Shown here: piece by piece, positions 13,366 through 25,370 of the stretch
Layout: the number at the start of each line of letters is the position of its first letter
How positions within the stretch are numbered: position 1 is the stretch's first letter
Assembly: GCA_030148665.1 (NCBI GenBank)
Contig: JASBSZ010000029.1
Location: 1-64,000 of the forward strand
Origin: Alphaproteobacteria bacterium
GTDB lineage: Bacteria > Pseudomonadota > Alphaproteobacteria > Rhodobacterales > Rhodobacteraceae
DNA: 64,000 bases
Direction: 5' to 3'
The notes under the pieces: model-generated
What the model was told of the DNA's origin: nothing
Database searches by the model: none
What the model saw: the letters and a program-made list of their open reading frames with translations, nothing else
Translations under genes and position numbers: made by a program

Positions 13366-14085
13366 ATGAGCAAGGACAAGGCCCCGACAGGTGCGCCCTG
13401 GCGCAACTTTTACGGCCGCCGTCACGGCAAGAGTTTGCGCAACAGCCAGCGGGAATATCTGGAATCCGACCTGCGCCGGCTGGCGGTGCCGAATGTTGGC
13501 TGGGACGAAAACCCCGAACGCCGCAAGATCGACCTGACGCAACTGTTCGGCGACGAACGACCTGTCTGGCTGGAAATCGGCTTTGGCGGGGGCGAGCATA
13601 TGGTGCATCAGGCGGCCCTGCATCCCGAGGTCGGGTTGATCGGCTGCGAGCCCTTCATCAATGGCGTTGCCATGCTGCTGGGCAAGATCCGCGAGGCAGG
13701 TGTCGAAAACCTTGCCATCCATCCGGGCGATGTGCGCGACCTGTTCGATGTGCTGCCGGACGCGTCGATTGCGCGGGCCTTTCTGCTGTATCCCGACCCC
13801 TGGCCGAAAAAGCGCCATCACCGGCGCCGGTTCGTGAACCCGGAATTTCTGGATCCGCTGGCCCGCGTCATGCAGCCCGGCGCGATTTTGCGCGTGGCCA
13901 CCGACATCGAGGATTACGTTCGCCAGACGCTGGAACAATTGACGCGCCACCCCGATTTCGAATGGCTTGCCGAAGGCCCGGATGACTGGCGCAAGCCCTG
14001 GGATGACTGGCAATCCACGCGCTATGAAAACAAGGCCCTGCGCGAGGGCCGCAAGCCGCATTACCTGACCTTCACGCGCCTTTGA
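13366..14085 (+). CDS. trmB: tRNA (guanine-46-N7)-methyltransferase TrmB
   Basis: TrmB methylates G46 of tRNA using S-adenosylmethionine. The 239-residue protein has the SAM-binding GFGGGEHMVHQA, the central DPWPKKRHHRRRFV signature and ENKALREGRKPHYLTF at the end. The start may be ATG 13366 (MSKDKAP) or the in-frame ATG at 13357, nine bases upstream. It follows metK, the source of its cofactor. Its 3' end overlaps the convergent TetR gene by 14 bases. Confidence 0.95.
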   Translation: MSKDKAPTGAPWRNFYGRRHGKSLRNSQREYLESDLRRLAVPNVGWDENPERRKIDLTQLFGDERPVWLEIGFGGGEHMVHQAALHPEVGLIGCEPFINGVAMLLGKIREAGVENLAIHPGDVRDLFDVLPDASIARAFLLYPDPWPKKRHHRRRFVNPEFLDPLARVMQPGAILRVATDIEDYVRQTLEQLTRHPDFEWLAEGPDDWRKPWDDWQSTRYENKALREGRKPHYLTFTRL

Positions 14086-14725
14086 GCGATCCCGCAGGGT
14101 CGGGTTCGGGTGCCAGAAGTCGGCGGAACAGATCGATGGCCTTGTCGTTCAATGTGCGGCGTAGGCGGTCATCCAGCTCGTCCCAGTGTTCCAGGAACCA
14201 GCGGTCCATCGACATGGCCAGAGACATTACCATGTCAATGATCAGGCTTTCGGGCAGGTCCTGTCGCAACAGGCCCAGCTGTTGTCCCCGTTTGATCAGA
14301 TCCCGCAGCCAATCGAGCGATATCTGCATGATCTCACGCGTGAGGATGCGCTCGTCCGGGTTCTCGTGGCAGCGGTAGAACATCCGCCCTACTGTCACCA
14401 GCTGGGGCGAGCGATCGGCCATTCTTGACAATTCATCCGCCATGAGCGCGATCACGGGCCAGAAATTTTCCCGATCCAGCCGGGAAACATCAAAGGACGA
14501 GCGCGCCGAAAGAATGGGCAGCAGGGCATCATTGAGGATCTGCGTGAAAAGATCCTGCTTGTTCCTGAAGTAGTGGTAAAAGGACGATTTGCTCATCCCC
14601 ACCGCATCGATGATGCGATTCAGAGAGGCGCCGCGAAAGCCGTGGGTTGCAAATTCCGCCGCGCCCACCTGAAATATCCGGTTGCGCCTCTCATCCGAAA
14701 GCCTGTGCGAAGGGTGATCGTTCAT
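14072..14725 (-). CDS. TetR-family transcriptional regulator
   Basis: The 217-residue regulator has a typical TetR N-terminal helix-turn-helix (residues about 12-58: RRNRIFQVGAAEFATHGFRGASL...GMSKSSFYHYFRNKQDLF) and an all-helical C-terminal ligand domain with no recognised ligand. It is divergent from the LolA-like/ABC/outer-membrane genes, and a perfect palindrome lies between them. It probably represses that operon, and perhaps itself, until a lipid-like or envelope signal is bound. That function is inferred. Confidence 0.9.
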   Translation of the reverse strand: MNDHPSHRLSDERRNRIFQVGAAEFATHGFRGASLNRIIDAVGMSKSSFYHYFRNKQDLFTQILNDALLPILSARSSFDVSRLDRENFWPVIALMADELSRMADRSPQLVTVGRMFYRCHENPDERILTREIMQISLDWLRDLIKRGQQLGLLRQDLPESLIIDMVMSLAMSMDRWFLEHWDELDDRLRRTLNDKAIDLFRRLLAPEPDPAGSLKGA

Positions 14726-14763
14726 GTTCTTGACAGGGATGCCCGGGATAGCTACCTATGGTG

Positions 14764-14781
14764 TTGGACCGACCGGTCCAA
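14764..14781. promoter_or_regulatory. Palindromic operator, probably for the adjacent TetR regulator
   Basis: TTGGACCG-AC-CGGTCCAA is a perfect 8+8 inverted repeat in the 145-base gap between the divergent TetR gene (start 14725) and the LolA-like gene (start 14871). TetR-family dimers usually bind such sites between divergent genes. Confidence 0.72.
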
Positions 14782-14870
14782 TAAATTCCTTAACCTACCC
14801 GTTCGGGTTTGGCAAGTTGGCGGAGTTCGGCAGAACGCCCCGCGCGGGCCAGACGGAGAAAGGGATCGGG

Positions 14871-15668
14871 ATGTCTCGGATTTTCAAGGACAGGAAAAGA
14901 CCAGGGATTTCGCGCAACCTGTTGACCGCGTTCCTGACCGCACTGGCAATGGTCGCCGTCGCAGTGCCGCAGGCATCCGCCCAGAATGCGCGGTCGATCC
15001 TGAAAAAGGCCTATGACAACTGGCGCGCGGACAGTTCCTTTTCGGTTGTCGAGATGACGATCAAGCGCAAGGGAAAACTGCGCAAGCTGACGATGAAAAG
15101 CTGGACCAGGGGCAAGGACAAGGCCCTGGTCCGTTTCGTGGCACCTGCGCGCGACGCCGGCAATGCGACCTTGCAGATCGGCAATTCCACCTATGTCTAC
15201 AACCCCAGGATCAATCAGGTCATCAAGCTGCCCGCCAGCGCCATGTCGCAGTCATGGATGGGTTCGGATTTTTCCTATAACGATCTGGCGCGTTCGCAAC
15301 GGGTGCTTGACGACTATACGCACAAGCTGATCGGAACAAGAGTCATCGGGGGGCAGAAGGTCTATGTGATCGAATCCATTCCCAAACGGGGCAGGCCCAT
15401 TGTCTGGGGCAAGCAGATCATCATGGTGCGCGGCGATGGCGTTCTGTACCGGGTCGAGTATTACGACCAGCTGGGCAAACGGGTGCGCGAGATGACCGCC
15501 GACAAGATCGGTCGCATCGGCGGGCGGCTCTATCCCGTCGTGATGACCATGCGGCGCGACGACAAGCCTGGGCAGTATACGCGCATCAAGACGATCTCGG
15601 CCCAATTCAACATCCCGATTCCGGCCTATGTCTTTACGCGCTCGAACCTGCAGAACCCGAGGGATTGA
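14871..15668 (+). CDS. LolA-like outer-membrane lipoprotein-sorting-type periplasmic protein
   Basis: This 265-residue protein has a signal peptide (about residues 1-38, ending PQASAQ) and a LolA/LolB-like fold, a half-barrel that carries acyl chains. Typical family stretches are SSFSVVEMTIKRKGKLRKL, RFVAPARDAGNATLQIG and VYNPRINQVIKLPASAMSQSWMGSDFSYNDL. It is not LolA itself: it is longer and sits with two FtsX permeases and an ATPase. The ATG at 14871 follows GGAGAAAGGG. As first gene of the operon it probably hands a lipid or lipoprotein from the ABC complex toward the outer membrane. Confidence 0.86.
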   Translation: MSRIFKDRKRPGISRNLLTAFLTALAMVAVAVPQASAQNARSILKKAYDNWRADSSFSVVEMTIKRKGKLRKLTMKSWTRGKDKALVRFVAPARDAGNATLQIGNSTYVYNPRINQVIKLPASAMSQSWMGSDFSYNDLARSQRVLDDYTHKLIGTRVIGGQKVYVIESIPKRGRPIVWGKQIIMVRGDGVLYRVEYYDQLGKRVREMTADKIGRIGGRLYPVVMTMRRDDKPGQYTRIKTISAQFNIPIPAYVFTRSNLQNPRD

Positions 15669-15671
15669 GGC

Positions 15672-16889
15672 ATGATCGCCTCGCTTGCATGGCGAAACAT
15701 CTGGCGTCAGCCAACCCGTACCGCGCTCAGCCTGACGGGCATGGCCTTTGCCTCGATGTTGCTGGTTTTCATGTTGTCGTTCCAGTTCGGATCATATGAC
15801 TCGATGAAGGCGAACATCCTGCGGATCATCGACGGCTTTGGGCAGGTCCAGCCACCGGGCTACAAGGACGACCCCGAGATCACCAAGGTCATTCGCGATC
15901 CCTCGGGCCTGATTGCCGAGCTCGAGTCGCTCCCGCAGGTGACTACGGCCAGCGCACGGGCAAACGGCTATGTCCTGCTGGCCAATGGCGAGCGCAGCTT
16001 TGCCGCCGCCGTCGCCGGGGTCGATCCGGTAAAGGAGGTTCGGATCACCCGGATCGCCAGCCTCATCAAGCAGGGCCGCCCCCTGCGGGCCGACGACGAT
16101 GCGGCCATCGTGCTGGGCGAGGCGCTGGCACGCAATCTGCGCCTGAAGGTGGGCGATCGGGTCACCCTGCTGGGCACGGCGATGGACGGATCGGTCGCTG
16201 CCGACGTGTTGAAGGTGGTCGGGATCTTTCGCACCGGCATCACCGAAATCGACCGCCAGATCGCGCATATGCCGCTTGACCGGTTTCGCGAGACATTCGT
16301 CATGGACGGGGCGGTCAACGAGGTCGCCATCATCGGTCGCGATCTGCGCGACATCATCAATGCCGAACCCCGCCTGCGGGCGATTGCCGCCCGTCACGAT
16401 GCGGTCTATCTGAACTGGGGGCAGCTGCAGCCCGCGGTCAAACAGGCGATCACGCTGGACATGACCACGGCCTCGCTGATGTACGGCACGCTGGTCATCG
16501 TGGTCGTGTTCATCATCCTGAACACGCTGTACATGTCGGTACTGGAACGCACCCGTGAATTCGGGGTGCTTCTGGCCGTGGGCATGAAGCCGGGGCAGAT
16601 CGGGCGGATGGTCTGGATGGAGATCATCTTTCTTTCCCTGGTCGGCACCGGAATCGGCATTGTCCTGGGCATGGGGCTTGCCTGGTATTTCGGGCGTGTC
16701 GGCGTCACGTTCGAGGGGATGCAGCAGATCTTTTCGCAATGGGGCCTGCCGCCGCGCATCTATCCGCGCATGACACCGTTTCGGGTGCTGGCCGGCCCCA
16801 GCGCGATCATCCTGCTGATAGCGATTGCCGGGATCATCCCCTATCGGCGGGTTCTGGGACTGGAACCGGTCAAGGCGATGAACGCATGA
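15672..16889 (+). CDS. ABC transporter permease (FtsX/LolE type), first of two
   Basis: This 405-residue permease has the MacB/LolCE layout: an N-terminal membrane segment after WRNIWRQPTRTALSLTGM, a large periplasmic domain (about residues 45-270), and three C-terminal membrane segments (TLVIVVVFIILNTLYM; MEIIFLSLVGTGIGIVLGMGL; ILLIAIAGIIPYRRVLG). It starts 3 bases after the LolA-like gene and overlaps the next permease as ATGA. FtsX-type permeases of this layout move substrates laterally from the inner membrane to a periplasmic carrier rather than import solutes. Confidence 0.9.
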   Translation: MIASLAWRNIWRQPTRTALSLTGMAFASMLLVFMLSFQFGSYDSMKANILRIIDGFGQVQPPGYKDDPEITKVIRDPSGLIAELESLPQVTTASARANGYVLLANGERSFAAAVAGVDPVKEVRITRIASLIKQGRPLRADDDAAIVLGEALARNLRLKVGDRVTLLGTAMDGSVAADVLKVVGIFRTGITEIDRQIAHMPLDRFRETFVMDGAVNEVAIIGRDLRDIINAEPRLRAIAARHDAVYLNWGQLQPAVKQAITLDMTTASLMYGTLVIVVVFIILNTLYMSVLERTREFGVLLAVGMKPGQIGRMVWMEIIFLSLVGTGIGIVLGMGLAWYFGRVGVTFEGMQQIFSQWGLPPRIYPRMTPFRVLAGPSAIILLIAIAGIIPYRRVLGLEPVKAMNA

Positions 16890-18115
16890 TTGATACGCTG
16901 CGCATATTCGCCCCCCTGGCCTGGCGTAACCTGTGGCGCAACCCGCGCCGCACGTTGATCACGCTGATCGTGGTGTCGGTCGGGCTGTGGTCGGTACTGG
17001 CCTTCAATTCCTTTCTCGAGGCCTGGACCCAGGCCAGCAAGGACACGACGCTGAAACTGTTGCTGGGGCAGGGGCAGATCCATGCGCCGGGCTACATGGA
17101 CGACCCCGGCGTGGAAAAGCTGATGCCGCCGCCGGATGCGACGCTACGCGCAGCGCTGGATGATCCGCGCATCGCGTCATGGGCGATGCGACTGGTCGTG
17201 CCCGCTGTCGTGCAAAGCGAATACAAGACCCTGCCCGTCATGGTGGTCGGGGTCGATCCGAAATCCGAGCGCAAGGTTTCCTCGATTCCGGGCAAGGTTG
17301 TTGCAGGGCGGTATCTGTCCGGTCCGCGCGACGATGGCGTGGTCATCGGGCAGCACCTGGCGGACCGCCTGAAAACCGGGCTGGGCCGAAGGGTGATCCT
17401 GATGTCACAGGGTGCTGACGGCAAGCTGGCGCAGCAGTCCTTTGACATTGTCGGTCTTTATGATGCCGACCAGCAGACCGAGGACTATTATGTCTTTACC
17501 GGGCGCAAGGCAGAACAGGAATTTCTCGGCCTGTCCGGTCAGATTGCCGAGATCGTCTTTACCATACCGCGCGAGGCCGATCTTGCCCCGGTCATCGCTG
17601 ATCTGCAAAAGGCGGCACCTGCCCTGGATGTGCGGTCGTGGAAGAAACTGTCGCCATTTCTCGCGGCGACAAATGCGTTCATGGGCGGGTTCATCTATAT
17701 CTGGCTGGCGGTGGTGTTTACCCTGATGGCCATTGGTATCGTCAACACGCAGCTGATGGCCGTTTTCGAGCGCACCCATGAATTCGGACTGTTGCAGGCC
17801 CTGGGCATGAAACCGCGGCTGATCCTGATCATGGTGACGATGGAATCGACCCTGCTGATCGGTCTTGGCGTGGTCGTGGGCGCCATCATCGCGGCGGCAA
17901 CGATCTGGGCTGCGCGCGACGGGATCGACCTGTCGGCCTTTGCCAAGGGGCTGGAGCTGGTGCAGGGCGGGCAGATCCTGTTTCCGAAATTCGACGGGCG
18001 GGCCTTTTTCGAATTCTCGCTGGCGATCTGGCTGCTCGGAATCGCGGTGGCGTTGTGGCCGGCATGGCGGGCCTCGCGCGCAAGCCCGGTCGAGGTCATG
18101 CGGCAGACGACCTAG
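16886..18115 (+). CDS. ABC transporter permease (FtsX/LolC type), second of two
   Basis: This 409-residue permease is homologous in layout to the preceding gene: AWRNLWRNPRRTLITLIVVS at the start, a periplasmic domain, and three membrane segments at the end (FIYIWLAVVFTLMAIGIV; TLLIGLGVVVGAIIAAATIW; FEFSLAIWLLGIAVALWPAW). The two probably form a heterodimeric channel like LolC/LolE. Its ATG overlaps the upstream stop by four bases. The ATPase gene follows after 11 bases. Confidence 0.9.
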   Translation: MIDTLRIFAPLAWRNLWRNPRRTLITLIVVSVGLWSVLAFNSFLEAWTQASKDTTLKLLLGQGQIHAPGYMDDPGVEKLMPPPDATLRAALDDPRIASWAMRLVVPAVVQSEYKTLPVMVVGVDPKSERKVSSIPGKVVAGRYLSGPRDDGVVIGQHLADRLKTGLGRRVILMSQGADGKLAQQSFDIVGLYDADQQTEDYYVFTGRKAEQEFLGLSGQIAEIVFTIPREADLAPVIADLQKAAPALDVRSWKKLSPFLAATNAFMGGFIYIWLAVVFTLMAIGIVNTQLMAVFERTHEFGLLQALGMKPRLILIMVTMESTLLIGLGVVVGAIIAAATIWAARDGIDLSAFAKGLELVQGGQILFPKFDGRAFFEFSLAIWLLGIAVALWPAWRASRASPVEVMRQTT

Positions 18116-18126
18116 AAAGGATGCAG

Positions 18127-18819
18127 ATGATGACAGAACCGATCGTGAGTTGCAGGGGCGTCAACAAGATCTTTGGAAGTGGCGAGTTGCAGGTCCATGC
18201 CCTTCGCGATGTCGATCTGGACATCATGCCCGGAGATTTCGCAACCCTTGCCGGGCCCAGCGGGTCGGGCAAGACGACGCTTCTGAACATGGTCGGGGCG
18301 CTGGATACGCCAACCTCGGGCGAGGTAGTGATCGACGGGCAGTCGCTGCGCGGAATGGGGAAATCGGAATTGTCGGATCTGCGCCTGAACAAGGTCGGTT
18401 TCGTCTTTCAGGCCTACAATCTGGTTCCGGTGTTGTCGGCACGTGAAAATATCGAATTCGTCCTTGAACTCCATGGCATGCCTTCTGCCGAACGGCGTGA
18501 TAGGGCGCGTGAAATCCTGCGCGAGGTCGGGCTCGAGGGGCTCGAGAACCGTCGCCCTGCCCAGCTTTCGGGTGGGCAGCAGCAGCGCGTCGCCGTGGCC
18601 CGCGCCCTGGTTGCGCGTCCCAGCATCGTGCTGGCGGATGAGCCAACCGCGAATCTGGACTCGAAAACCACGGAAGAGCTGGTTCAGCTGATGTATCGTC
18701 TGAACCGCGAGTTCGGGACGACATTCGTGATCGGCACCCACGACCCCCGGGTGATGGAACACAGCAAGCGACATATCGAGTTGCTGGATGGGAGGATCGC
18801 AAGCGATGAACGGAGTTAA
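18127..18819 (+). CDS. ABC transporter ATPase (LolD/MacB type)
   Basis: This 230-residue ATPase has Walker [10 protein letters not shown], signature [15 protein letters not shown], Walker [17 protein letters not shown] and the switch His in [11 protein letters not shown]. Its closest relatives in organisation are LolD/MacB ATPases. The start is ATG 18127 or 18130: AAAGG at 18116-18120 is correctly spaced for these but not for the ATG at 18121. It overlaps the downstream barrel gene by 14 bases, tying that protein to the transporter. Confidence 0.92.
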
Positions 18820-20080
18820 CCGAGGCAAGGCGGTGGTCGCCGGGCGCATGCGCAAGGCATGGCTGGTGGCGCTTTTGGTCGCGGCGATCATGCCCGGCCC
18901 TGTTGCGGCCGATGGGCTGCGGTTGCGGACCGAGCTTTCTTCAGGTCGGGCATGGGCAACCGCAACCAGCCTGGACGCGGCGCTGGGCTATGCCTCGCAC
19001 CAGGCGACTGGTGCCGGGGTGCGACTGATCCATGAAAAGACCCTGGGTGATTTCAGGATCGAACTGCAAGGCGTGATCACGGCCCGGCGCGGAAGCGATG
19101 TGGGCTATCGCACGGCCCTGGCGGCCAGTTTTCCGCCCGTGCCGCCCGCGACGCTGTTCGACCTCGGCCAGACCTGGCGGCAGGACGCGACAACCCTGAT
19201 CGCGGGCAGGATCGACCGCCTGTCTCTGGGTTATGCAGGGCCGAACCTGGTGCTGCGCATCGGCAGGCAGGCCATTACCTGGGGCAGCGGCATCGTGTTC
19301 CACCCGGCCGACATCGTGGCGCCATTTCCGCCGGATGCGGTGGATACCACTTACAAGCCAGGGGCAGACATGATCTATGCCCAGTACCTGTTTGACAGCG
19401 GGGCCGATATTCAGGCCATTGCCCTGCCGCGACCGCTGGTGCCCGGTGGTCCGGTGGCGTTTGCCAATTCGACCTATGCCGTGCGCGGCAAGACGTTGGT
19501 GGGCGCGCTGGATCTGTCGGCCATGTTTGCCCGCGACCGGGGCGACAGTGCCGGCAGCGTGGGGTTGGCGGGTGCGCTGGGTGGTGCCAGCTGGAACGCC
19601 CAGTACATCGGCTGGAAACTGGCCGGCGGGGCCGGGCGACCAAGCTGGCTGGTCAACATTTCCAGTTTCGGCACGCTGGCGGGGCGAAACATGTCATGGT
19701 TTGCCGAAATCTATCACAACGGTTTCGGGGTCGCCCCGGGGGTGCCGTTATCCCTGTTGCCGGCGGACCTGCTCAAGCGCAGCGCGACCGGCCAGGTCTT
19801 TGTCATGGGGCGGGATTTCGCGGCGCTGGGCGGGCGGGTCGAGCTGAACCCCGATCTGTCGGCATCCCCAACCGCGCTGTTCAGCCTGAATGACGGCAGC
19901 GTGCTGCTCAATCTGCGGTTCGATTATTCGCTGGGCGACAATACCGATATCCTGTTCGCTGCGAGCCGACCATTTGGCCGCAACGGCAGCGAATTCGGAG
20001 GGCGCGAGACCGCGCCCGGCTCGGGGATTTACGCCCGCCCGGCAACCCGGTTGACGGTGAAACTGGTGCGCTATTTCTGA
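18806..20080 (+). CDS. Outer-membrane beta-barrel-like protein of the ABC/LolA-like operon
   Basis: The 424-residue protein has a signal peptide (about residues 15-36, WLVALLVAAIMPGPVAADG) and many alternating short amphipathic strands, and it ends in VRYF with the terminal aromatic residue typical of outer-membrane barrels. A central stretch LVLRIGRQAITWGSGIVFHP resembles a motif of DUF1302-type envelope proteins, but I cannot assign a family. It is the fifth gene of the operon, overlapping the ATPase, so it is a candidate outer-membrane acceptor or exit for whatever the LolA-like protein carries. Function unknown. Confidence 0.72.
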   Translation: MNGVNRGKAVVAGRMRKAWLVALLVAAIMPGPVAADGLRLRTELSSGRAWATATSLDAALGYASHQATGAGVRLIHEKTLGDFRIELQGVITARRGSDVGYRTALAASFPPVPPATLFDLGQTWRQDATTLIAGRIDRLSLGYAGPNLVLRIGRQAITWGSGIVFHPADIVAPFPPDAVDTTYKPGADMIYAQYLFDSGADIQAIALPRPLVPGGPVAFANSTYAVRGKTLVGALDLSAMFARDRGDSAGSVGLAGALGGASWNAQYIGWKLAGGAGRPSWLVNISSFGTLAGRNMSWFAEIYHNGFGVAPGVPLSLLPADLLKRSATGQVFVMGRDFAALGGRVELNPDLSASPTALFSLNDGSVLLNLRFDYSLGDNTDILFAASRPFGRNGSEFGGRETAPGSGIYARPATRLTVKLVRYF

Positions 20081-20145: not shown

Positions 20146-20457
20146 ATGAAAACAGCGGTTCTTTCCAGCCTTGTTCTGGTCACGATGGCAGGTTCGGCGC
20201 CCGCCAGCGACCTGATACGCAAGGCCTGCCTGAAATCCGCCCGCCCTGCGGTCACCGTTCGGCTGTGCGCCTGCATCCAGCAGGTCGCCAATCAGCGTCT
20301 CGAACCCCGTGACCAGCGTCTGGCGGCCAGTTTTTTCCGAAACCCGCAAAAGGCCCAGCGGATTCGCCAGTCGGACAACGCGCGCCATGCGGTATTCTGG
20401 CAGCGTTATCGGCAATGGGGAGAAGCCGCCGAAAAGGCCTGCAGCGGGCGCGAGTGA
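20146..20457 (+). CDS. Small secreted four-cysteine protein, function unknown
   Basis: The 103-residue protein has a signal peptide (MKTAVLSSLVLVTMAGSAPAS). A helical domain follows with four cysteines (RKACLKS, RLCACIQ, EKACSG) and the conserved stretch RLAASFFRNPQKAQRIRQSDN. Similar small proteins are common in Rhodobacterales and, as I recall, are often labelled 'arginine transporter', which this sequence does not support: it has a single hydrophobic stretch, the signal peptide. The ATG at 20146 was chosen because the signal peptide begins there. It stands alone, 65 bases after the barrel gene. Confidence 0.7.
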   Translation: MKTAVLSSLVLVTMAGSAPASDLIRKACLKSARPAVTVRLCACIQQVANQRLEPRDQRLAASFFRNPQKAQRIRQSDNARHAVFWQRYRQWGEAAEKACSGRE

Positions 20458-23684: not shown

Positions 23685-25370
23685 ATGTCTGCAACTGCGA
23701 CCATGGAAGAATTCGAAAGCCTCCTGAACGAGAGCTTCGAACTGGACACCCCCCAGGAGGGGAGCGTCGTCAAAGGCACTGTCATCGCCATCGAAAACGG
23801 ACAGGCCATCATCGATATCGGCTACAAGATGGAAGGCCGTGTCGATCTGAAAGAATTTGCAAATCCCGGCGAGCCGCCCGAAATCGAGGTTGGCGATACC
23901 GTCGAGGTCTATCTTGAGCGCGTCGAGAACGCCCGTGGCGAGGCTGTCATCAGCCGCGACAAGGCCCGCCGCGAAGAGGCCTGGGACCGCCTTGAAAAAG
24001 CTGCCGCCAATGACGAGCGCGTCGAAGGCGCGATCTTTGGCCGGGTCAAGGGCGGGTTTACCGTCGATCTCGGCGGTGCCGTGGCCTTCCTGCCCGGCAG
24101 CCAGGTCGATGTGCGCCCCGTACGCGATGCGTCTGCCCTGATGGGCATCAAGCAGCCCTTCCAGATTCTGAAAATGGACCGCCGCCGTGGCAACATCGTT
24201 GTTTCCCGCCGCGCCATCCTGGAAGAAAGCCGTGCCGAACAGCGCGCCGAGATCGTCGGCAAGCTGAACGAAGGCGACGTCGTCGAAGGCGTGGTCAAGA
24301 ACATCACCGAATACGGCGCATTCGTCGATCTGGGTGGCGTGGACGGCCTGCTGCACGTCACCGACATGGCCTGGCGCCGCGTCAACCACCCTTCGGAAAT
24401 CGTGTCGATCGGCGAAACCATCAAGGTGCAGATCGTCAAGATCAACAAGGAAACCCTGCGCATCAGCCTGGGCCTCAAGCAGCTGCAGGAAGATCCCTGG
24501 ACCCATGTCGAGGAAAAATACGCGCTGGGCACTGTCCACAAGGGCCGCGTGACCAACATCACCGACTATGGCGCATTCGTCGAGCTGGAACCCGGCGTCG
24601 AGGGCCTTGTCCACGTCTCGGAAATGTCCTGGACCAAGAAAAACGTGCATCCGGGCAAGATCGTTTCCACCTCGCAAGAGGTTGACGTGATGATCCTGGA
24701 AATCGACACGGCCAAGCGCCGCGTCAGCCTTGGCCTGAAGCAGACCCAGGGCAACCAGTGGGAAAACTTCAAGAAGGCATTCCCCGTGGGCACCGAGGTC
24801 GAAGGCGAGGTCAAGAACATCACCGAATTCGGCCTGTTCATCGGCCTCGAAGGCGGTATCGACGGCATGGTTCACCTGTCCGATCTGGACTGGAATCGTT
24901 CCGGCGAGGAAGCCATGGAAGACTATCGCAAGGGCGATATCGTCAAGGCCGTGGTCACCGATGTCGACGTCGAAAAGGAACGCATCAGCCTGTCGATCAA
25001 GGCGCTGGAAGGCGACCCGTTTGCCGAGGCGACCTCGGGCGTCAAGCGTGGCGATGTGGTGACAGTCACCGTCACCAAGATCGAGGATGGTGGTATCGAG
25101 GTCGAATATGACGGCATGAAGAGCTTTATCCGTCGTTCGGACCTTTCGCGCGACCGTTCCGAGCAGCGTCCCGAGCGGTTCTCGGTTGGCGACAAGGTGG
25201 ACGCCCGCATCACCAATATCGACCGCAACTCGCGCCGTTTGGGTCTGTCGATCAAGGCCCGCGAGATCGCCGAGGAAAAAGAGGCCGTCAAGCAATACGG
25301 CTCGTCCGACTCGGGCGCCAGCCTGGGCGATATCCTGGGTGCCGCGCTCAAGAGCAAGGACAAGGCGTGA
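23685..25370 (+). CDS. rpsA: 30S ribosomal protein S1
   Basis: S1 brings mRNA to the 30S subunit. The 561-residue protein contains six S1 RNA-binding repeats; the clearest begin at VKGTVIAIENGQAIIDIG, VEGVVKNITEYGAFVDLG, HKGRVTNITDYGAFVELE and VEGEVKNITEFGLFIGLE. The start is the ATG at 23685 (MSATATMEEF). A short hairpin terminator follows the stop. Promoter-like sequence in cmk suggests partly independent expression. Confidence 0.97.
   Translation: MSATATMEEFESLLNESFELDTPQEGSVVKGTVIAIENGQAIIDIGYKMEGRVDLKEFANPGEPPEIEVGDTVEVYLERVENARGEAVISRDKARREEAWDRLEKAAANDERVEGAIFGRVKGGFTVDLGGAVAFLPGSQVDVRPVRDASALMGIKQPFQILKMDRRRGNIVVSRRAILEESRAEQRAEIVGKLNEGDVVEGVVKNITEYGAFVDLGGVDGLLHVTDMAWRRVNHPSEIVSIGETIKVQIVKINKETLRISLGLKQLQEDPWTHVEEKYALGTVHKGRVTNITDYGAFVELEPGVEGLVHVSEMSWTKKNVHPGKIVSTSQEVDVMILEIDTAKRRVSLGLKQTQGNQWENFKKAFPVGTEVEGEVKNITEFGLFIGLEGGIDGMVHLSDLDWNRSGEEAMEDYRKGDIVKAVVTDVDVEKERISLSIKALEGDPFAEATSGVKRGDVVTVTVTKIEDGGIEVEYDGMKSFIRRSDLSRDRSEQRPERFSVGDKVDARITNIDRNSRRLGLSIKAREIAEEKEAVKQYGSSDSGASLGDILGAALKSKDKA

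Follow-up and report, generated by a model that had tools for sequence, protein, structure and literature searches.

A TetR-flanked operon combining a Lol-type ABC engine, a LolA-like carrier and a candidate outer-membrane barrel in Rhodobacteraceae

Described systems and the locus

Several described gene sets combine a LolA-like carrier with an inner-membrane engine, and some add an outer-membrane barrel. They form the background to the locus considered here, at 14072-20080 of the window (the whole 64,000-nucleotide stretch of alphaproteobacterial DNA that was analyzed), in which a TetR gene lies divergent from genes for a LolA-like carrier, two FtsX permeases, an ATP-binding cassette (ABC) ATPase and a candidate outer-membrane β-barrel. 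With a probability of roughly 0.6, we consider this operon to be repressed by TetR and to export, as a self-contained set, some hydrophobic or amphiphilic compound (lipid, hydrocarbon-like metabolite or toxic lipophile), which would make it an ATP-driven counterpart of AmeABCD-like exporters.

AmeABCD of Castellaniella defragrans likewise unites a dedicated barrel (DUF1302), a LolA-superfamily carrier and an inner-membrane engine in one cassette, and its deletion phenotype concerns hydrophobic compounds: tolerance to non-functionalized monoterpenes was lower, and Nile Red accumulation was slightly higher in cells treated with carbonyl cyanide m-chlorophenylhydrazone (CCCP) (PMC6394551). It differs in having an HAE3-type resistance-nodulation-division (RND) engine, a DUF1329 carrier and a fourth protein, AmeC, and the accessible part of that report describes no TetR (PMC6394551), whereas the window locus has an FtsX/ABC engine and a divergent TetR. 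Neither an HAE3 RND engine nor a YCF48-like AmeC was among the Pfam matches of the window operon, although the Ame-type pairing of carrier and outer-membrane barrel within one operon is present, the carrier firmly and the barrel with moderate support.

In the Borrelia cluster BBJ23-29, a type VII Lol/MacB-like ABC engine, a LolA-like carrier and a barrel again share one cluster, for which a non-polar cargo has been proposed; the function is a predicted one, the barrel is of the Omp85 type, a homodimer is proposed for the product of its single permease gene, and two TPR proteins and BBJ29 are additional (PMC13078400). By Pfam, the window operon has no Omp85 or TPR match. The aryl polyene transport genes ApeL-ApeM-ApeN join a LolA-like carrier to an engine of its own, as proposed for an outer-membrane lipid, but the engine is an RND pump, a LolB-like DUF3261 protein stands in place of a barrel, and the genes lie within a biosynthetic cluster (PMC8253772). 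In Thalassolituus, TOL_3187 and the next gene supply a LolA-like domain, an engine and an adjacent porin-like protein; here the engine is of the RND type, the carrier is fused to it, and the link is to growth on a long-chain alkane (PMC6304351). LolABCDE itself shares the engine superfamily and the carrier fold but has no barrel. The arrangement has more precedent than the preliminary description supposed, as AmeABCD, BBJ23-29 and the aryl polyene genes share its logic. Its parts resemble known systems, while for the exact gene set no description was found in open-access full texts, which take in no bioRxiv preprints and few papers from subscription journals.

Organization of the operon and its operator

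The locus consists of six open reading frames (ORFs), one on the minus strand and five on the plus strand, with the following features.

14072-14725, minus strand: TetR-family repressor, 217 aa, divergent from the operon; PF00440 TetR_N, 2.9e-13
14730-14758, plus strand: putative operon promoter, TTGACA (14730-14735), 17 nucleotides, weak -10 TACCTA (14753-14758)
14764-14781, no strand assigned: operator candidate TTGGACCG-AC-CGGTCCAA, two perfect 8-base arms, just downstream of the putative -10
14871-15668, plus strand: periplasmic LolA-like carrier, 265 aa; PF17131, 7.7e-51; Sec-type signal by eye
15672-16889, plus strand: permease 1, 405 aa; FtsX and MacB_PCD; closest solved relatives LolF and LolE
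16886-18115, plus strand: permease 2, 409 aa; FtsX and MacB_PCD; closest solved relatives LolF and LolE
18127-18819, plus strand: ABC ATPase of the DevA/LolD/YbbA/MacB/FtsE group; ABC_tran, 2.6e-34
18806-20080, plus strand: outer-membrane β-barrel candidate, 424 aa; signal peptide and C-terminal F by eye

The five genes are tightly packed: 3 bases separate the carrier (end 15668) from permease 1 (start 15672), the permeases share an ATGA overlap at 16886-16889, 11 bases lie between the end of permease 2 at 18115 and the ATPase start codon at 18127, and the ATPase and barrel genes overlap by 14 bases (18806-18819). An alternative in-frame ATG for the ATPase lies at 18121, and the profile searches with this protein used the sequence from 18124. 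Reading the ORFs and the palindrome bore out this layout as first described, with its divergent TetR gene, its five packed genes and all their gaps and overlaps. The interpretation built on it was supported in part, namely for an operator candidate specific to the locus, a LolA-fold carrier, a Lol-type engine distinct from canonical Lol and, less firmly than the other fold families, a dedicated barrel; the cargo, the direction of transport, the barrel's role as acceptor and sensing of the cargo by TetR are proposals.

The TetR assignment rests on a TetR_N helix-turn-helix and on the palindromic site beside the divergent gene; no NCBIfam equivalog cut-off was reached by this protein. The core motif TGGACCN4GGTCCA occurs once in the window and in none of 100 shuffles, and it has a single place in the 2.77-Mb genome assembly, which would fit a repressor dedicated to the operon. 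The motif lies between the TetR and carrier genes in 11 of the 15 loci scanned (the window, eight of nine same-genus genomes, L010 and L057; L, G and C numbers denote our loci, genomes and contigs), with L009 and L017 treated as one locus and counted once. When these 11 loci are aligned, both half-sites are invariant, as is TGACA upstream of the operator, which reads TTGACA wherever the row extends that far; the A at 14754 is also invariant, and the preceding T nearly so. The spacing from TTGACA to the -10 is longer in L057 than the 17 nucleotides of the window. A generic sigma-70 scan found no promoter, from which we take the -10 to be weak.

A Lol-type engine and a LolA-fold carrier

Profiles of both permeases, searched against the PDB, matched LolF best (5.3e-34 for permease 1 and 5.2e-42 for permease 2), then LolE, ahead of MacB. 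FtsX-fold permeases, a MacB-like periplasmic domain and an ATPase of the MacB/LolD group together characterize the engine as a type VII ABC transporter. Such transporters act by mechanotransmission, and for several of them extraction of lipid-like cargo has been put forward or demonstrated (PMC12646458, PMC9457489); for YbbAP, extraction of hydrophobic compounds has been proposed, but YbbAP-TesA differs from the window locus in its hydrolase partner, its 10-helix permease and its lack of carrier and barrel (PMC12646458). These relationships would also accommodate a tripartite pump like MacAB-TolC, in which the barrel would be an uninterrupted duct and a diffusible carrier would play no part, since both permeases contain MacB_PCD and the engine is of type VII. 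Such a pump is very improbable here: MacAB-TolC has a MacA adaptor, TolC and a fused ATPase-permease, whereas the window operon has a separate ATPase, no MacA-type adaptor and no TolC among its Pfam matches, its permeases are nearer to LolF and LolE than to MacB, and no long helical duct segment appears in the (weak) barrel model.

The engine is also set apart from canonical Lol. Against the LolCE model TIGR02212 the permeases scored 122.6 and 93.5 bits (cut-off 362.45 bits), and against the LolD model TIGR02211 the ATPase scored 224.6 bits (cut-off 307.75 bits); its score with the DevA model, 231.5 bits, was above the LolD score yet below the DevA cut-off. Among the matches listed for the locus proteins, which for the ATPase are the best 25 of 198, no NCBIfam family scored above its cut-off. 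Both permeases have a shortened hairpin at what we presume to be the position of the Hook: relative to LolF, with its P-x-G-x-x-P tip, the hairpin is five columns shorter in permease 1 and two columns shorter in permease 2, the tip is absent, and the length of the segment is near-equal among the 13 sequences of each permease alignment. A structure model of permease 1 had a predicted local distance difference test (pLDDT) score of 38, too low to judge the Hook. In the Lol system, LolC recruits LolA through a Hook hairpin and a Pad (PMC9457489). Given a shorter hairpin that lacks the LolF tip, docking of the carrier on the permeases may differ from that in Lol.

The carrier matched a single Pfam family, PF17131, and not the LolA family PF03548, and its best PDB relatives were the LolA-fold entries 9tp6 (4.2e-18) and 4z48 (1.3e-13), then 3buu and 3bk5. 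The first of these is LolA3 of Porphyromonas gingivalis; its interaction with the organism's LolB-like protein was no more than very weak, and the authors suggested a separate function (PMC13103446).

The canonical Lol system in the genus

In the window's genus, canonical Lol is encoded separately. Full-length canonical LolCE was found in all nine other same-genus genomes searched (seven above the cut-off and two within a bit of it), and each also has window-type permeases. In the window's own assembly, which is 94% complete, no LolCE match exceeded the cut-off, and LolC of G153 recovered only the window permeases and one weak match. Directly upstream of lolC, G153 has a gene for a class II tRNA synthetase (taken to be proS), and this gene too has only a 25% match in the window's assembly; that lolC and the synthetase gene are missing together points to an assembly gap, into which the canonical lol block probably fell. 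Protein searches were decisive on this point, a 13-kb DNA search having scored only 40 of 233 candidates. The genome's one PF03548 LolA protein lies elsewhere, on contig C29. We therefore reject the reading of the locus as the genome's only LolCDE under odd annotation: the missing LolCE match in the assembly speaks for it, but its chances are almost nil when all nine relatives hold both systems and the gene adjacent to lolC is also absent from this incomplete assembly. The probable gap (assembly G000) would mislead a census of Lol genes.

A different possibility is that the locus is a second Lol route that sorts some of the lipoproteins, and that its barrel takes the place of LolB as acceptor or exposes these lipoproteins at the surface. 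Permeases nearest to LolF and LolE and a carrier with the LolA fold are what such a route would have. It nevertheless appears unlikely, given the wide margins by which the LolCE and LolD cut-offs were missed, permease hairpins shorter than that of LolF and without its proline-glycine tip, canonical LolCE in the same-genus genomes and a PF03548 LolA elsewhere in the genome. PF17131 carriers, moreover, pair with RND pumps too, and we know of no RND pump that extracts lipoproteins. We lean toward a hydrophobic small molecule or lipid as cargo rather than lipoproteins.

The candidate outer-membrane barrel

There is moderate support, from family profiles and a low-confidence structure model, for the last gene encoding an outer-membrane barrel of about 18 strands. 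The alignment profile of the family contains 18 β-alternating segments, against 7.1±2.3 in shuffles, none of 300 shuffles reaching 18, whereas the permease, ATPase, TetR and carrier profiles show no excess β-alternation. A C-terminal F is present in 49 of 51 family members (the window and 48 of 50 loci). The AlphaFold2 model has 19 strands of at least three residues, and when it was submitted to Foldseek the best 50 of 572 matches were all outer-membrane barrels, bacterial or mitochondrial; MOMP, OmpU, DcaP, OccK/Opd porins and AlgE were near the top, and six matches had E<=0.001. Because the template-modeling (TM) scores were low (0.18 to 0.33 by query length), this comparison indicates a barrel, not which barrel.

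Searches of PDB sequences with the barrel and with its profile gave no match, and a plasmid search with the barrel found none. PF06980 (DUF1302) was matched by three of 13 family members (best 6.8e-4); for comparison, two members gave matches to an unrelated family, at values up to 0.0011. In a profile-profile comparison, the family matched the BAR2 barrels, which accompany other PF17131 carriers (see below), at 4.2e-10, and four of ten BAR2 barrels match DUF1302 (best 3.2e-20). A remote relationship of the window's barrel family to DUF1302 is thereby suggested.

Conservation of the module

The locus is present in all nine other same-genus genomes searched (G149-G157), seven of them with a complete set including TetR, and a TetR homologue is in the matching position in all nine; in L019 and L024 the locus runs into the contig end at the second permease. 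Among 149 genomes of the family, one per genus, PF17131 occurs in 18 (26 places) and the barrel in five, own genome included, every time within the module. Farther afield, a profile of 13 barrels (E<=1e-10) matched nine of 385 genomes of the class and 56 of 398 of the phylum, again counting the window's own. We examined 38 of these loci, comprising all eight other class matches and 30 of the 54 phylum matches outside the genus. In every one, an ATPase gene lies near the barrel gene on the same strand (gap at most 42 bases in 33, larger in five), and the complete set of carrier, permeases, ATPase and barrel is present in 34. The order of the five genes is found again in distant genomes, which puts the arrangement well outside what chance would give.

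The preliminary description had named three outcomes that would count against it, and none was encountered: the barrel is conserved beside the ABC genes, β-alternation of the profile and Foldseek matches of the weak model favor an outer-membrane barrel fold, and the ABC part is not the only LolCDE where the nine relatives can be consulted.

Variants of the module were also seen. L064:8337-10841 and L068:8620-11124 have both FtsX permeases fused in one protein of 834 aa, in the order carrier-ATPase-permease-barrel. In L075:6803-13238 the second permease occupies two ORFs and the barrel is preceded by a gap of 1.1 kb, possibly marking a decaying or misassembled copy. L065:6187-8305 comprises ATPase and barrel only, with no recognized permeases or carrier, and adjoins a penicillin-binding protein gene. 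In seven loci (L060:6468-7544, L062, L063, L069, L072, L082 and L085) a gene converges on the barrel gene at a distance of 4-40 bases; in L060 it is cNMP-binding by Pfam.

Carrier-barrel pairs with either engine

The window's genome holds a second PF17131 locus on contig C11, at about 14.7-19.8 kb (L029:4661-9806). It encodes a pair of FtsX permeases, an ATPase bearing a YHS domain at its C terminus, a LolA_like carrier and a barrel of 396 aa that differs from the one in the window. Among the family's 26 PF17131 places, ten adjoin a type VII ABC engine (five of the window type, L029, L032, L043, one in L044, and L045) and 12 an RND pump (L031, L034-L039, L041, L042, one in L044, L047 and L048, the last with one gene in between); Pfam confirmed MMPL in seven of these 12. 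As for the others, L033 has an RND pump 3.9 kb off, L030 shows none, and L040 and L046 begin at a contig end. A barrel scoring at least 35 bits with the BAR or BAR2 model accompanies 16 of the 26 places, most BAR2 scores being high by construction because those barrels were built into the model; four places are weak (L036, L043, L045 and L046). BAR2 barrels stand with ABC engines (L029, L032) and with RND engines (L031, L034, L035, L039, and weakly L037 and L038).

An Ame-type cassette, DUF1302-DUF1329-YCF48-MMPL, occurs in L048:3265-10614; its full DUF1302 protein was missed by the BAR and BAR2 models, and its DUF1329 protein has a further match, to PF17131, at 2e-10. G014, the genome in which this cassette lies, has a module of the window type as well (L028). 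In L034:4962-8273 and L035:4773-7958, an MMPL pump and a LolA_like carrier form one protein with the carrier at its C terminus, and genes for a barrel and a TetR protein come next, the same logic as in TOL_3187.

Because PF17131 carriers and BAR2 barrels occur with either engine, it seems, from synteny in this one family, that the carrier-barrel pair stays constant while the engine can be exchanged. More broadly, though at slightly less than even odds, these loci may belong to a broad class, as yet without a name, that exports hydrophobic cargo across the envelope, with a constant LolA-fold carrier and a DUF1302-like barrel of 16-18 strands served by a Lol-type ABC or an RND engine. If so, a diffusible carrier would deliver the cargo to the barrel, which would accept it through a lateral gate, and export across the outer membrane could proceed without a helical duct and without an adaptor.

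Proposed function

By analogy with the described systems, the two Lol-type permeases and the ATPase would use mechanotransmission to lift the cargo from the inner membrane; the cargo would then enter the hydrophobic cleft of the LolA-like protein and be ferried across the periplasm; and the dedicated barrel, probably of about 18 strands, would receive it for placement in, or passage through, the outer membrane. TetR would occupy its one operator near the transcription start until binding of the cargo, or of a lipophile related to it, frees the repressor from the DNA.

The direction of transport could be the reverse. In an uptake or retrograde route, the barrel would admit a hydrophobic nutrient or remove misplaced outer-membrane lipid, and TetR would allow induction by the substrate. 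The Thalassolituus MMPL-LolA fusion TOL_3187 gives this some precedent, being 42-fold up on n-C28, with the porin-like protein encoded beside it seen only on n-C28 and passage of long-chain alkanes proposed (PMC6304351). We hold such a route to be improbable for the window locus, since the nearest solved relatives of its engine, LolCDE and LolF, move cargo away from the inner membrane and no catabolic gene was seen recurring nearby in the loci examined.

Several observations tell against the export of a hydrophobic compound as proposed here. The engine and carrier are Lol relatives, which leaves room for lipoprotein cargo, and no gene that would name the cargo recurs beside the module in the loci examined, where recurring neighbors are mixed regulators, antisense ORFs or local synteny. 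The operator was not found in four of the 15 loci scanned (L019, L025, L027 and L049); in L019 the intergenic stretch and the carrier start are absent from the available sequence. Four of the 38 loci have no recognized carrier: for L065, L071 and L086 a six-frame search found none either, and L079 is cut by a contig end. As to the barrel, the window protein has no Pfam match at E<=1, and the AlphaFold2 model, built from three sequences, is of low confidence (pLDDT 45.6, predicted TM score 0.38). In a single-sequence test of β-alternation the window barrel was not above chance (z -0.5), whereas all 12 of its relatives were positive (z 1.2 to 4.2). A soluble control encoded at 23685-25370 of the window, presumably ribosomal protein S1, scored z 3.0, so that the single-sequence test is not specific and the profile version was relied on.

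Should the export reading be correct, it would put a name to a conserved envelope-crossing route now hidden behind labels such as 'outer membrane lipoprotein-sorting protein' and 'ABC transporter permease' and an unnamed barrel, and would open to experiment the general question of how hydrophobic molecules get to, or past, the outer membrane when no duct is there. With only one operator in play, identifying the inducer is a way to find the cargo.

Neighboring genes

Upstream of the locus lie trmB (Methyltransf_4 by Pfam), which the 3' end of the TetR gene overlaps by 14 bases, and an S-adenosylmethionine synthetase gene. Downstream, a gene for a small secreted protein precedes the EPSP synthase gene. 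The small protein (20146-20457 of the window) has no assigned family, and among the loci searched a homologue is similarly placed in one same-genus genome (L020).

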